Shown here: in pieces, positions 32,214 through 36,886 of the stretch | Position numbering within the stretch: the stretch's first letter is position 1 | How the letters are laid out: each line of letters opens with the position of its first letter | Source: Rhodanobacter sp. | Lineage (GTDB): Bacteria > Pseudomonadota > Gammaproteobacteria > Xanthomonadales > Rhodanobacteraceae | Reading direction: 5' to 3' | DNA length: 64,000 nt | Assembly (NCBI GenBank): GCA_040371205.1 | Contig: AP031382.1 | Coordinates: 1,609,562-1,673,561 of the forward strand | Made by a program: the position numbers and the translations under genes | The notes under the pieces: generated by a model | Told to the model about the DNA's origin: nothing | Seen by the model: the letters and a program-made list of their open reading frames with translations, nothing else | The model's database searches: none

Positions 32214-32389
32214 GCAAATAGACGTCCAAACGGGCTATTCATCATACCACGCGGGGCACGCCGGCCTGCGGCAACCTGCCCTGGCCAAATGCGAGCCATT
32301 CGCGCCCTGAATCCGGTCGCGGGCGTAGCATGGCGGGGGTTCCATCGCCTGGCGTGATGGAAGTTCTTCACCAACGATAGAGGTTTCCG

Positions 32390-32722
32390 ATGTCGCACGA
32401 CGAAAACAACGAATCGCGCCGCCGCTTCCTCAAACTGGCGGCCGGCACCACGGCGGCCGCAGCGGTGCTGGGCGGCTTGCCGTCTTTGGCGCGCGCGGCC
32501 GATCTGCCGCACGTGACCGATGCCGATCCCACGGCCAAGGCACTGGGTTACGTGGAAGACGCCAGCAAGACCAGCAATCCGAAGCACAAGGCCGGCGACG
32601 ACTGCAGCAATTGCCAGTTCTACTCCGGCGGCCCGACCGGTTACGGTCCGTGCGCGCTGTTTCCCGGCAAGGCTGTCAGCGCCAAGGGCTGGTGCGTGTC
32701 GCATTCGCCGAAGGCGAAGTGA
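32390..32722 (+). CDS. High-potential iron-sulfur protein (HiPIP), Tat-exported
   Basis: 110 aa. A Tat signal (residues 10-37, RRRFLKL and a hydrophobic region ending ARAAD) is followed by a mature ~73-residue protein with four cysteines at 72, 75, 88 and 102 that bind the [4Fe-4S] cluster (C-x2-C, C, C). Periplasmic electron carrier to cytochrome oxidases or reaction centres in other bacteria; the partner here is unknown. A rho-independent terminator follows. Divergent from mtnB. Confidence 0.93.
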   Translation: MSHDENNESRRRFLKLAAGTTAAAAVLGGLPSLARAADLPHVTDADPTAKALGYVEDASKTSNPKHKAGDDCSNCQFYSGGPTGYGPCALFPGKAVSAKGWCVSHSPKAK

Positions 32723-32750: not shown

Positions 32751-32779
32751 AAAGGCCGGCACATGTTGCCGGCTTTTTC
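32751..32779 (+). terminator. Rho-independent terminator after the HiPIP gene
   Basis: GCCGGC (32755-32760) / 7-nt loop ACATGTT / GCCGGC (32768-32773), flanked by AAAG and a T-run TTTTT. The stem can extend with A-T pairs. Confidence 0.85.
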
Positions 32780-32849
32780 TTTGGCGCGCGACGCGCAAGC
32801 AGAAGCAGCCGCAGGCGATGCGGGCAGACGTCGGTGAAGGGAGGGAGAC

Positions 32850-33048
32850 TGGCTGAAAAATGCTGCCCGGCGCGTCAGGCTGAGGAGCTACCCACCTGAC
32901 GCGCCGGGCGGCGATCCGGGGCCCACTGCCAAGTGATCAACCCTCGGACTGGGGATCATACCCCCGGCCGGGGCGAATGGGCTGTGGATAGTCGAGACTC
33001 TTTCGGAAGTATTCCGTTAATCCATTCAAATAGAAGAGATTTTTTTTG
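32850..33048. ncRNA. Candidate structured RNA in the gap between the HiPIP and permease genes
   Basis: Region 32723-33155 (433 nt) has no supported ORF but dense structure. A perfect 15-bp hairpin GCCCGGCGCGTCAGG (32865-32879) / CCTGACGCGCCGGGC (32895-32909) is followed by GCCCA (32921-32925) pairing TGGGC (32978-32982), enclosing the hairpin TGATC..GATCA (32934-32958) and the palindrome CCCCGGCCGGGG (32962-32973): a three-way junction. On the + strand CTCTT/AAGAG with inner CGGAA/TTCCG ends in eight T (33040-33047), terminator-like. On the - strand the first hairpin is followed by a T-run (complement of 32856-32860), so an RNA of either polarity is possible. No Rfam family was recognised. 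Confidence 0.5.
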
Positions 33049-33155: not shown

Positions 33156-34613
33156 TCAAATTGGCGACGGATCGGCTTTCGTGCGGCGCAGCCGGCTGTG
33201 CCGATAGCCGTAGCCGAAATAGATCGCCAGGCCGACCACGGTCCAGATCCCCATGAGCAGCCACTGGTACCAGTTCTCCCAGTACAGCAGGCCCAGGCAG
33301 CTCAGCACGCCCAAGGTGCAGATCACCGGCGCCCACGGCACGCGGAAGGTGCGTGGCAGCTTGGGATGGGTATAGCGAAGGATCAGCACACCAGCGCACA
33401 CCGCCACAAAGGCGATCAGCGTGCCCATCGAGACGAGGTCACCCAGGATGTCGAGCGGGAACACGGCGGCAAGCGCGGCGATCCCGAGGCCGGTGATGAC
33501 GGTGTTGATGTGCGGGGTCTTGTAGCGCGGGTGGATCTTCGCGAACACCGGCGGCAGCAGGCCGTCGTTGCCCATGATCATGAAGATGCGCGGCTGCGCG
33601 ATGATCATTACCAGCACGACCGAGGACAGGCCGATCAAGGCGCCGATCTCGACCAGCCAGCGCAACCAGCCCAACTCGGGGTGCGCTTTCACGGCGGTCA
33701 CCACCGGTTCGCTGGTGCCCAATTGGTCGAACGGCAGCAGGCCAGTGATCACCGCCGCCATGCCGATGTACAGCACGGTGCAGACGGCCAGCGAAACCAG
33801 GGTGCCGATGGGCAGGTCGCGCTGCGGGTTCTTCGCTTCCTGCGCTGCGGTGGAGGTGGCTTCGAAGCCGATGTAGGCGAAGAACACCAGGGTCGACGCG
33901 CGCATGATGCCGGCCCAGCCGAATTTCTCCGGCCCCTGCTGTGCCGGGATGAACGGGTGCCACAGCGCGGGGTTCACGTACTGCCAGCCGGCGACGATCA
34001 CCACCACGATCAGGCCGACCTTGAGCAGCACCATCGCCAGGTTCGCGCCGCTGGATTCGCGGATGCCCACGTAGCAAAGCCAGGTCAGCGCCAGCGTAAT
34101 GCCCACGGCCGGCAGGTTGAACAGTGCGCCGGTGGCGACGAGGTGGCCATCCGTGTACGCGAGCGGCGCATTGGTCAGCACCGCGGGCAGGTGCAGCCCC
34201 ATGTGATCGAGCAGGCTGGTGAAGTAGCCCGTCCAGCTCACCGCCACCGCCGAGGCGGAGACGCCGTATTCGAGCACCATGTTCCAGCCGATGAACCAGG
34301 CCACCAGTTCGCCCAGCGTGGCGTAGGCGTAGGAATACGAGCTGCCCGACATCGGGATCAAGGTGGCGAACTCGGCGTAGCACAGCGCGGTGAAGCTGCA
34401 GCAGACCGCCGCGATGATGAAGGCCAGGATGATCGCCGGCCCCGCATGTTCGGCCGCGGCCTGGCCGGTGATCACGAAGATGCCGCCGCCGATCACTGCG
34501 CCGATGCCCAGCGCCGTCAGCCCCCAGGGCCCCAGCGTGCGTTTCAACCCGATGTCGTGTGTGCCATCGGTACCGGAGAATTCGGTCTTGCGGGCGAGCA
34601 GTTGCTTGAGCAT
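33156..34613 (-). CDS. APC-family amino-acid permease (proximal copy)
   Basis: 485 aa, start MLKQLLARKTEF at 34613 with GGAAG six nt upstream; an ATG 15 nt earlier is possible. Twelve hydrophobic segments are visible. Motifs of the cationic-type APC transporters: GLTALGIGAVIGGGIFVITG (TM1), GPAIILAFIIAAVCC, IGFEATSTAAQEAKNPQRDLPIG (the conserved glutamate and basic loop) and LMGIWTVVGLAIYF near the end. Substrate cannot be read. It is 74 nt downstream of a second permease that is its paralogue. Confidence 0.9.
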   Translation of the reverse strand: MLKQLLARKTEFSGTDGTHDIGLKRTLGPWGLTALGIGAVIGGGIFVITGQAAAEHAGPAIILAFIIAAVCCSFTALCYAEFATLIPMSGSSYSYAYATLGELVAWFIGWNMVLEYGVSASAVAVSWTGYFTSLLDHMGLHLPAVLTNAPLAYTDGHLVATGALFNLPAVGITLALTWLCYVGIRESSGANLAMVLLKVGLIVVVIVAGWQYVNPALWHPFIPAQQGPEKFGWAGIMRASTLVFFAYIGFEATSTAAQEAKNPQRDLPIGTLVSLAVCTVLYIGMAAVITGLLPFDQLGTSEPVVTAVKAHPELGWLRWLVEIGALIGLSSVVLVMIIAQPRIFMIMGNDGLLPPVFAKIHPRYKTPHINTVITGLGIAALAAVFPLDILGDLVSMGTLIAFVAVCAGVLILRYTHPKLPRTFRVPWAPVICTLGVLSCLGLLYWENWYQWLLMGIWTVVGLAIYFGYGYRHSRLRRTKADPSPI

Positions 34614-34687
34614 GGTGCTTCCGGACATGGAACCGGCACGACGTGGTCGTGCCGGCAGTGTGGCGAATGGCTGGTGCGTGCGGGGTA

Positions 34688-36172
34688 TCAGTCCGCTTCG
34701 ATGCCGCGGGCCAGGTTGCTCTTGCGGTAGCCGTACAGGTAGTACACCACCAGGCCGATCGCGCCCCAAGCAAAGAACGTGATCTTGGCTTCCTTCGACA
34801 GGTTCAGGAACAACAGCAGGCAACCGATCACCGCCAGCGGGCACACCACCCACGGCAGCGGGGTGCGGAACGGACGCGGGCGGTCGGGCTGGGTGCGGCG
34901 CAGGATCAGCACGCCCACGGCCACCATCATGAAGGCGAACAGCGTGCCCGAATTGGTGATGTCGGCGAGGATGCCCACCGGGAACAGCGCGCCGAACAGC
35001 GAGACGAACACGCCGGTGATCAGGGTGATGATGTGCGGCGTGTGGAAGCGCGGGTGGATCTTGGCCAGTCCGCGGGGCAGCAGGCCGTCGCGCGACATGG
35101 TGAAGAAGATGCGGGTCTGGCCGTAGGTCATCGTCAGGATCACCGACGGCAGCGCGATGCCGGCGGCAAAGGCGATGAAGCCGGCGATGGTATTGTGGTT
35201 GAGCAGGTGCACCACGTGGGCCAGCGCCTCCTTGCTGCACACCAGCGCCTGCGAGCCGTTGCAGGCCGCGGCGAAGGCCGGCGTACCCGGTTCCAGCGCA
35301 AGGCCGTTCGGGCCGAGCATCGGTTGCGCGCCCACCGAGCCCACGGCGGCATAGCTCACCAGCAGGTAGTAGATGGTGCACACGCCCAGCGCCCCGATCA
35401 GGGCGATCGGGATGTTGCGGTTCGGGTTCTTGGTTTCCTCGGCGGCGGTCGAGATGGCATCGAAGCCGATGTAGGCGAACACGATGGAAGCCGCCGCGCC
35501 CAGCACGCCGATACCGCCCATCGGGCTGCCCCAGCCGTTCGGCACGAAGGGCGTGAAGTTGGAATCCTTCACCGCCGGCAACGCGACGATGATGAAGGCG
35601 GTAAGGGCGGCGATCTTTACCAGCACCAATACGGTGTTGACCATGGCCGACTTCGAGGTGCCGACCACCAGCAGCCCGGTAATGACCAGGCCGATCAGGC
35701 AGGCCAGCAGGTTGAAGGTGCCGCCGTCCATCGGGCCTACTTGAAGGAAGTGCGGCAAACCGAGTCCGGCATGCATCAGCAAGCCGTTGACGTACCCCGC
35801 CCAGCCCACGCACACCGTGCTGGCGGCAATGGTGTATTCCAGCACCAGCGCCCAGCCGACGATCCATGCGACGCCTTCGCCGAGCACGCCGTAGGTATAG
35901 GTGTAGGCCGAGCCGGCCACGGGCACCATCGCGGCCAGTTCCGCGTAGGCCAGCGCGGCGAAGGCGCAGACCACCGCGGCGATCACGAAGGCGATCATCA
36001 TGCCGGGGCCGGCTTTCTGTCCCGCCTCGGCGGTGAGCACGAAGATGCCGGTACCGATGATTGCGCCGATGCCGAGCATGGTGAGTTGGAAGGCACCGAG
36101 CTGGCGGGTGAGGCTTTTCTTCTCCGCCGTGGCGATGATCTGGTCGATCGGCTTGATGCGTTTGAACAGCAT
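34688..36172 (-). CDS. APC-family amino-acid permease (distal paralogue)
   Basis: 494 aa from the ATG at 36172. Same architecture as the neighbour: QLTMLGIGAIIGTGIFVLTAEAG, GPGMMIAFVIAAVVCAF, IGFDAISTAAEETKNPNRNIPIA. It carries an insertion in the extracellular loop (VGAQPMLGPNGLALEPG with two Cys). The two permeases are clearly homologous but not nearly identical, i.e. an old tandem duplication. Promoter lies in the 162-nt gap to the divergent NUDIX gene. Confidence 0.9.
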   Translation of the reverse strand: MLFKRIKPIDQIIATAEKKSLTRQLGAFQLTMLGIGAIIGTGIFVLTAEAGQKAGPGMMIAFVIAAVVCAFAALAYAELAAMVPVAGSAYTYTYGVLGEGVAWIVGWALVLEYTIAASTVCVGWAGYVNGLLMHAGLGLPHFLQVGPMDGGTFNLLACLIGLVITGLLVVGTSKSAMVNTVLVLVKIAALTAFIIVALPAVKDSNFTPFVPNGWGSPMGGIGVLGAAASIVFAYIGFDAISTAAEETKNPNRNIPIALIGALGVCTIYYLLVSYAAVGSVGAQPMLGPNGLALEPGTPAFAAACNGSQALVCSKEALAHVVHLLNHNTIAGFIAFAAGIALPSVILTMTYGQTRIFFTMSRDGLLPRGLAKIHPRFHTPHIITLITGVFVSLFGALFPVGILADITNSGTLFAFMMVAVGVLILRRTQPDRPRPFRTPLPWVVCPLAVIGCLLLFLNLSKEAKITFFAWGAIGLVVYYLYGYRKSNLARGIEAD

Positions 36173-36334
36173 GCGTGGCTCCCCGGGAAACTGCGGCGTC
36201 ACGCTCGAACGGAAACGCGACGAAAAGGTACGCGACGAGCCGACGGACGCCCAACCATAGCCGAGCGGTTGGAGGGCGACAAGACGCGATGCAGCTAGAG
36301 TACGCTTTGCTTTTCCGCGCCTCTGCCACAAGTC

Positions 36335-36886
36335 ATGCCATACCGGTTTCCGCAACTTGCCGCTGCGCTGGACGACTATCTCGCGCGCCATCCCGAAGAG
36401 GGCGAAACCGTCGCCGACTTCGAGATGTTCCTCGCCTCGCATCCCGGCGTGTTCGAGCGCAGCCATCTGGCCGGCCATTTCACCGGCTCGGCATGGCTGG
36501 TGAGCGCGGACGGCGAGCGCGCGCTGCTGATGCACCACGCCAAGCTGCGCCGCTGGCTGCAACTCGGCGGCCACGCCGACGGCGACTGCGAGCTGGCGCG
36601 CGTGGCGCTGCGCGAAGCGGAGGAGGAATCCGGCCTGCATGCGCTGGCGGTGGAGGCCAAGATCTTCGACATCGACCGTCACCGCATTCCGGCGCGCGCG
36701 GACGAGCCGGAGCACTGGCACTACGACGTGCGTTACGTGGTGCGCGCCAACGGCAGCGAGGAGTACGCCATCAACGCGGAGTCGCTGGCCCTGGCGTGGC
36801 GATCGGTGCACGAGATCGCCCGCGACCCGCAGGCCGACGCCTCGCTGCGCCGCATGGCGAGGAAATGGCTGGCGCGGTCGCGATGA
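36335..36886 (+). CDS. NUDIX hydrolase
   Basis: 183 aa. The Nudix box is GGHADGDCELARVALREAEEESGL (positions ~97-120): the REAEEESG core is intact, but the first acidic residue of GX5EX7REUXEEXGU is displaced by one (Cys where Glu is expected, Glu next). N-terminal ~60 residues (LDDYLARHPEEG, VADFEMFLASHPGVFERSHLAGHFTGSAWL) match a subgroup of uncharacterised NUDIX proteins. A nucleoside diphosphate-X hydrolase by class; substrate unknown. Confidence 0.85.
   Translation: MPYRFPQLAAALDDYLARHPEEGETVADFEMFLASHPGVFERSHLAGHFTGSAWLVSADGERALLMHHAKLRRWLQLGGHADGDCELARVALREAEEESGLHALAVEAKIFDIDRHRIPARADEPEHWHYDVRYVVRANGSEEYAINAESLALAWRSVHEIARDPQADASLRRMARKWLARSR

Follow-up and report, generated by a model that had tools for sequence, protein, structure and literature searches.

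What occupies the gap between the HiPIP gene and the APC permease gene of Rhodanobacter sp., where a first-pass annotation had noted a large amount of ordered pairing? A structured RNA gene, possibly an sRNA, had been proposed there, read from the plus strand over positions 32850-33048 of the window (the whole stretch of DNA analyzed, 64,000 nucleotides) and built as a three-way junction with a T-run at its end. The structured RNA between these two genes stands, as does its lack of an Rfam match. The polarity, extent, junction and plus-strand end do not: the conserved RNA is shorter (about 32856-32950) and lies on the minus strand. We think it likely that the locus encodes a trans-acting sRNA of ~95 nt, transcribed from its own promoter and closed by a terminator-like hairpin, which would pair with the internal ribosome binding site of metJ-H1, a metJ gene fused to a histone-H1-like tail, and repress its translation.

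With this assignment, a little-studied family gains an sRNA whose candidate target is specific and could be deduced from the sequence itself. The locus also provides a set of naturally occurring compensatory changes linking an sRNA to its putative target, and draws attention to a MetJ-histone fusion that, with a likely internal start, is possibly a regulated dual-product gene.

The conserved RNA is on the minus strand

Re-reading the sequence recovered all of the pairing elements that had been described for this gap: a perfect 15-bp stem (32865-32879 with 32895-32909), a closing stem of GCCCA (32921-32925) and TGGGC (32978-32982), an inner hairpin with the arms TGATC (32934-32938) and GATCA (32954-32958), the palindrome CCCCGGCCGGGG (32962-32973), and CTCTT and AAGAG with eight T (33040-33047). 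On either strand, none of 200 dinucleotide shuffles folds as well as the 199-nt stretch itself (z of -5.39 for the plus and -4.58 for the minus strand), and the fold of the 97-nt minus-strand RNA is more extreme than that of the whole stretch (z of -6.23).

Most of the plus-strand parts are not conserved in the 89 homologous loci that we compared (82 distinct sequences). Counted as exact strings, with the locus itself included, the palindrome is found in 2 of the 89, both closing arms in 18 and the T8 run in 4. The inner hairpin keeps both of its arms in 55, because the TATGATC box and the UUGAUCA of the minus strand are conserved. What looked like junction parts correspond to the -10 box, the spacer that precedes it and the 5´ hairpin of the minus-strand RNA.

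The kinds of pairs found in the alignment also distinguish the strands. Read on the minus strand, the pair cells hold 308 G-U and 16 A-C combinations (177 and 13 in the terminator-like hairpin alone), which points to the minus strand, since the excess would be inverted for an RNA read from the plus strand. The proposed plus-strand RNA (~180-200 nt), whether an sRNA or another structured RNA, is hardly credible given this asymmetry and the poor conservation of its parts, despite its fold score and T8 run, and we rejected the three-way junction on the same two grounds.

Covariation was assessed in two alignments. The larger one (80 distinct rows) leans toward the structure, having been fitted to the model; standard pairs make up 97.6% of its pair cells, and two-sided changes are seen in 15 pairs, versus 8.2 in shuffles, and in 89 cells, versus 14.1; slid controls were at most 46.7% paired. 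A MAFFT alignment of 30 sequences gave two-sided changes in 9 of 32 pairs. Most of the covariation comes from the terminator-like hairpin, where 12 of 18 pairs have two-sided changes. In the 5´ hairpin, such changes are seen in 2 of the 7 outer pairs and in none of the 5 inner ones, and the support there is therefore mainly invariance. Relatives thus show both conservation of the secondary structure and covariation, on one strand, the minus strand.

Organization of the sRNA gene

The following features describe the locus, with positions given in the window.

32856-32950, minus strand: sRNA gene, ~95 nt, delimited by conservation between the -10 box and the T-run in homologous loci and by matches to the covariance model (CM R1)
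32955-32960, minus strand: -10 promoter element TATGAT; TATNAT is kept in 87 of 89 loci
32915-32948, minus strand: 5´ hairpin, with the stem UCCG(N)GGG/CCCCGGA (32941-32948/32915-32921) around CACU-UGGC-AGUG, from fold and alignment
32923-32932, minus strand: targeting element 1, UUGGCAGUGG, near-invariant and complementary to CCACUGCCAA in metJ-H1
32865-32909, minus strand: terminator-like hairpin with the perfect 15-bp stem and the T-run behind it
32882-32890, minus strand: targeting element 2, the apical UAGCUCCUC, an anti-Shine-Dalgarno sequence complementary to GAGGAGCUA in metJ-H1; its first base co-varies
32856-32860, minus strand: T-run behind the terminator-like hairpin, interrupted or short in many relatives
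32999-33020, minus strand: upstream element TTAACGGAATACTTCCGAAAGA, a roughly tandem ~11-bp repeat, with related sequence upstream in many, not all, relatives
32390-32722, plus strand: HiPIP gene (Pfam PF01355), the convergent neighbor, downstream of the RNA in 86 of 89 loci
33156-34625, minus strand: APC permease gene (Pfam PF13520), the same-strand upstream neighbor, upstream in 88 of 89 loci

From this arrangement, the sRNA would begin near 32949-32950 and end near 32856. The minus-strand order of hairpin and T-run had been noted in the first-pass annotation, and it likely marks the 3´ end; the hairpin may also end the permease transcript, the alternative raised in that annotation. At the other end, the TATNAT box starts 9-10 nt before the start of the RNA model, and most columns farther upstream are far less conserved across the 89 loci; a canonical -35 element was looked for upstream of the sRNA and none was found. 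In the predicted fold, only the UGGC of targeting element 1 is unpaired, and the apical targeting element 2 is partly shut by weak apical pairs.

The upstream element could be a site for a regulator. It has one copy in its own genome at up to 3 mismatches, and we set aside the idea of a regulon defined by it, as a second genomic copy was not found at that threshold. Two other sequences were seen in this upstream region: TATCCACA in several genomes of the same genus, and TTATCCACA, a DnaA-box-like motif, ~40 nt before the -10 box in L075, L077, L078 and L082 (part of genus g15).

No Rfam 15 family reaches its gathering score at this locus, and permissive matches fell far short of their thresholds, the top-ranked one scoring 20.4 bits against a gathering score of 150. 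A repetitive element was also rejected, as a search of the own genome returned just the locus itself and its reverse-strand hairpin; the RNA is single-copy in that genome.

Could the structure have no RNA function beyond terminating the APC permease message and forming its 3´ UTR? The permease is on the same strand, its match ends 50-359 nt upstream of the RNA in 87 loci and 1,615 nt upstream in another (one of the 89 has no match), and a hairpin followed by a T-run is what such an end would look like. However, the -10 box at a fixed spacing, the near-invariant 5´ domain outside the terminator hairpin, the co-variation of a loop base with a distant gene, and the persistence of the RNA where the permease match is just about 40% identical all argue against the 3´ UTR explanation, which we regard as improbable.

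Distribution and neighborhood

A search at the DNA level gave matches in 32 of 61 genomes, the own genome among them, and each of the 32 belongs to its own family, Rhodanobacteraceae. The covariance model, built from 30 aligned sequences, matches 105 of 147 Rhodanobacteraceae genomes, in 21 of 26 genera, and in a draw of 299 genomes from the order, for which the genomes without a match were partly listed, all 64 genomes with a match belong to Rhodanobacteraceae. The model missed three more genomes, of genus g43, in which motif reading identified a divergent form of the sRNA at the same locus; these three are included in the 108 sRNA-bearing genomes considered below. So far, the sRNA appears, by these searches, to be restricted to Rhodanobacteraceae.

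The position of the sRNA gene is fixed: besides the two flanking genes, mtnB lies beyond HiPIP in 89 of 89 loci. The permease itself is 88-94% identical to that of the window in some same-genus genomes and 76-77% identical in others (loci L001-L019). This identity is out of step with that of HiPIP and mtnB, possibly reflecting allele exchange beside the sRNA gene. Farther upstream (34688-36811, minus strand), a second amino-acid-permease-like reading frame adjoins the first; judged from the translation, the two are probably tandem paralogues. Behind the convergent HiPIP gene (32752-32781, plus strand), there is a hairpin with a T-run that looks terminator-like by eye, though a scan of the sequence did not list it.

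The candidate target is a metJ gene fused to a histone-H1-like tail

When the complement of targeting element 1 was searched in eight genomes, the motif CCACTGCCAA was found at the metJ-H1 locus in all eight, in tandem in seven. It is not enriched genome-wide (82 matches versus 83 for the reversed control in the 8 genomes). Among the part of these 82 matches that was compared (62 motif-centered segments from 50 loci, some covering the same place twice), no recurrent gene other than metJ-H1 was found; the metJ cluster also drew in another lysine-rich gene, from G035. A second lysine/alanine-rich reading frame of the own genome, at G000:C1:1421398 (L154, L182), carries CCACTGCCAA in its first codons and could be either a second target or an example of shared codon use. 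Duplex energy does not discriminate, with 58 of 12,790 windows of the 64-kb stretch scoring equal or better, and was therefore not used as support for a target.

The target gene (G000:C1:2781583-2782104, minus strand; L169:1584-2105) encodes a protein, of 173 residues in the own genome, in which MetJ continues in frame into a lysine/alanine-rich tail. The MetJ domain matches PF01340 with an E value of 7.9e-35, and the tail matches HC2 (histone H1-like) with an E value of 2.3e-6, below the curated HC2 cut-off. Of the 147 family genomes, 146 have the MetJ part, and in the translated targets MetJ runs on into the beginning of a lysine-rich tail. MetJ homologues are also found in 15 genomes from other families of the order; the 11 of these genes that were read are without the tail and have other codons at the site.

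The target stretch reads CCACUGCCAA-N5-GAGGAGCUN...AUG, in which GAGGAGCUN is complementary to the terminator-loop motif. A GAGGAG Shine-Dalgarno-like sequence lies 9-12 nt before a conserved in-frame ATG inside metJ-H1. This internal start is ATG in 134 of the 135 targets read and GTG in the remaining one, and it lies in frame shortly after the site despite codon insertions and deletions between the two.

Both target sites are intact in 107 of 108 sRNA-bearing genomes versus 9 of the 27 in which no sRNA was detected (at the mtnB locus by reading in 15 and by the CM scan alone in ten; mtnB was not found in the other two). In 107 sRNA-bearing genomes, codons 3-6, 9 and 10 of the site hardly vary at the nucleotide level, whereas codons 4, 5 and 11 are far more variable in the 27 genomes. 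Several neighboring codons are frozen in the latter as well, so part of the constraint must have another cause, perhaps the internal ribosome binding site.

Sequences resembling MET boxes were seen at two places. Weak MET-box-like repeats lie upstream of metJ-H1 in the own genome, and a single MET-box-like AGACGTCC (32220-32230 in the window), matched to the motif given in PMC4239095, lies just upstream of the methionine salvage gene mtnB and is perhaps a MetJ site. A scan for tandem MET boxes within the 64-kb window found none.

The sRNA loop and its candidate target change together

The first base of the apical loop motif would face the silent third base of a Leu codon in metJ-H1. Across the 108 genomes, the loop base and codon base read C/G in 77, U/A in 19, A/U in 2, U-G in 3 and A/G in 1; the loop base was unread in the other six (five g43, one g23). 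With a wider pattern, three of these six, those included in the tree, read C with G in the target.

The tree was built from the nucleotides of mtnB and HiPIP for 104 of the 108 paired genomes, leaving out the three g43 genomes known by motif and G081; a first tree that included the permease was discarded because the permease looks to have been exchanged between lineages. In these 104 genomes, 100 pairs are Watson-Crick and 103 pair when wobble is allowed, G156 (A/G) being the one mismatch. By comparison, the maxima in 20,000 simulations on the tree, in which the target base evolved independently (starting at G, with six changes placed by branch length and base weights that we chose), were 92 and 101, respectively. 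Parsimony assigns six changes each to the loop base and the target base, U/A or A/U pairs occur in five separate groups of the listing, and the two bases co-change in about five lineages.

This pair of positions was chosen after the table had been viewed, and a scan of codons and a prediction made in advance serve as checks on the choice. Among 77 metJ codons, this Leu codon shares by far the most mutual information with the loop base (0.669, versus 0.275 for the next). From a target codon CTT, we predicted that the loop would read AAGCTCC in the sister genomes G102 and G137, and it does in both. A second advance prediction, of a matching TTGGTAGTTG sRNA in genera g9 and g17, failed. The target there reads CAACTACCAA in 7 of the 8 genomes read and CCACTACCAA in one, and the TTGGTAGTTG sRNA was unseen at the mtnB locus; genome-wide matches to the pattern were scattered and at or below the reversed control.

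Targeting element 1, UUGGCAGUGG, is invariant and shows no covariation. A second pairing, of (A/G)UCA with UGA(U/C), was considered and dropped; the 108-genome table does not support it in general, and it is suggestive in genus g2 alone.

The RNA thus has complementarity that co-evolves with a message encoded elsewhere, and we consider both the sRNA gene and this co-evolution well supported by the comparison of genomes. At the level of sequence, the gene, its strand, the two-hairpin structure, the fixed position and the complementarity to metJ-H1 are established; from these we infer expression of the sRNA, pairing in the cell and repression.

A model for regulation of metJ-H1

In the model that we favor, both sRNA motifs would pair in the cell with the neighboring sites in the metJ-H1 message, and the pairing would cover the internal Shine-Dalgarno sequence and ribosome binding site. 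Initiation at the internal start would be lowered, leading to less free H1-like protein, and/or the whole metJ-H1 message would be destabilized, reducing the fusion protein. Since the site is deep in the MetJ frame, the full fusion could be affected only through message decay. One feature of the pairing is unusual: at the site that every sRNA-bearing genus has, the motifs follow one another in the same 5´-to-3´ order in the sRNA and in the target. The usual antiparallel order requires a second CCACTGCCAA after the ATG, which is absent from several genera.

More tentatively, one message could give rise to MetJ with a histone tail or to free H1-like protein, with the sRNA setting the ratio and linking methionine state to compaction of the nucleoid; in about five lineages, paired silent changes would have restored the match between sRNA and target. 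We see this extension as possible, though less likely than not to hold in full.

Two other readings accept the sRNA and differ as to its role. In one, metJ-H1 is mainly a sponge, or pairing activates it by opening a fold between the internal Shine-Dalgarno sequence and an upstream GUUCCUC. The predicted message fold does pair GAGGAGC with GUUCCUC and leaves most of CCACUGCCAA between them, but this fold is no better than that of shuffled sequences (z of 0.73). Moreover, the sRNA loop itself matches the Shine-Dalgarno bases, and so should block rather than free them, and no other recurrent target for a sponge to protect was seen in the part of the matches compared. We find this reading unlikely.

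In the other, which we also doubt, though less strongly, the sRNA acts mostly on other messages via its anti-Shine-Dalgarno loop, like sRNAs with C-rich loops, and metJ-H1 is one of many. GAGGAGCT is located 2-9 nt before an ATG 1-13 times per genome in 8 genomes (3-7 for the reversed control), which could provide such targets; however, a loop that served many messages should not follow the changes of a single silent base in metJ-H1.

Relation to known systems

In the open-license literature, we found neither this RNA nor its target nor the MetJ-H1 fusion described in the titles and abstract openings among the matches listed for sRNAs in Rhodanobacter, Rhodanobacteraceae and Luteibacter, and for MetJ with histone H1-like, small RNA, Xanthomonas and the genera of the family. 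A survey (PMC4239095) reports MetJ in six gammaproteobacterial groups, and passages of it name SamR, not MetJ, for Xanthomonadales. The MetJ domain (PF01340) is common to that regulon and the gene described here; the difference is that here MetJ carries an H1-like tail.

For the mode of pairing, a parallel is OxyS-fhlA of E. coli, in which two loops of one sRNA kiss two sites around a ribosome binding site. We liken the RNA described here to OxyS by this two-loop, two-site principle alone.

Within the same order, sX13 of Xanthomonas is described as an RNA of three stem-loops, with loops 1 and 2 each containing CCCC, encoded beside or downstream of polA in Xanthomonadaceae; it acts without Hfq, and its loop motifs match G-rich sites, some of them at ribosome binding sites (PMC3771888). 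On that description, the two have in common a strong structure and short loop motifs that match G-rich sites. The locus here is flanked by the permease, HiPIP and mtnB rather than lying downstream of polA, and the RNA has two hairpins with other loops and occurs in another family.

HctA is a histone-H1-like protein. In Chlamydia trachomatis, the trans-encoded stem-loop sRNA IhtA represses HctA translation through a loop that pairs around the start codon; one IhtA hairpin is the terminator, and by that report it is loop 1 that acts, at the AUG and not at the Shine-Dalgarno sequence (PMC4355289). Judged from this account, IhtA-hctA is the nearest working parallel that we found: a stem-loop sRNA with a terminator or terminator-like hairpin that acts, or here would act, on a histone-H1-like message. 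The bacteria belong to different phyla, and we liken the systems by working principle alone. Where IhtA is described as using loop 1 at the AUG, the terminator loop of the RNA described here matches the Shine-Dalgarno sequence, and its putative target is fused to MetJ.
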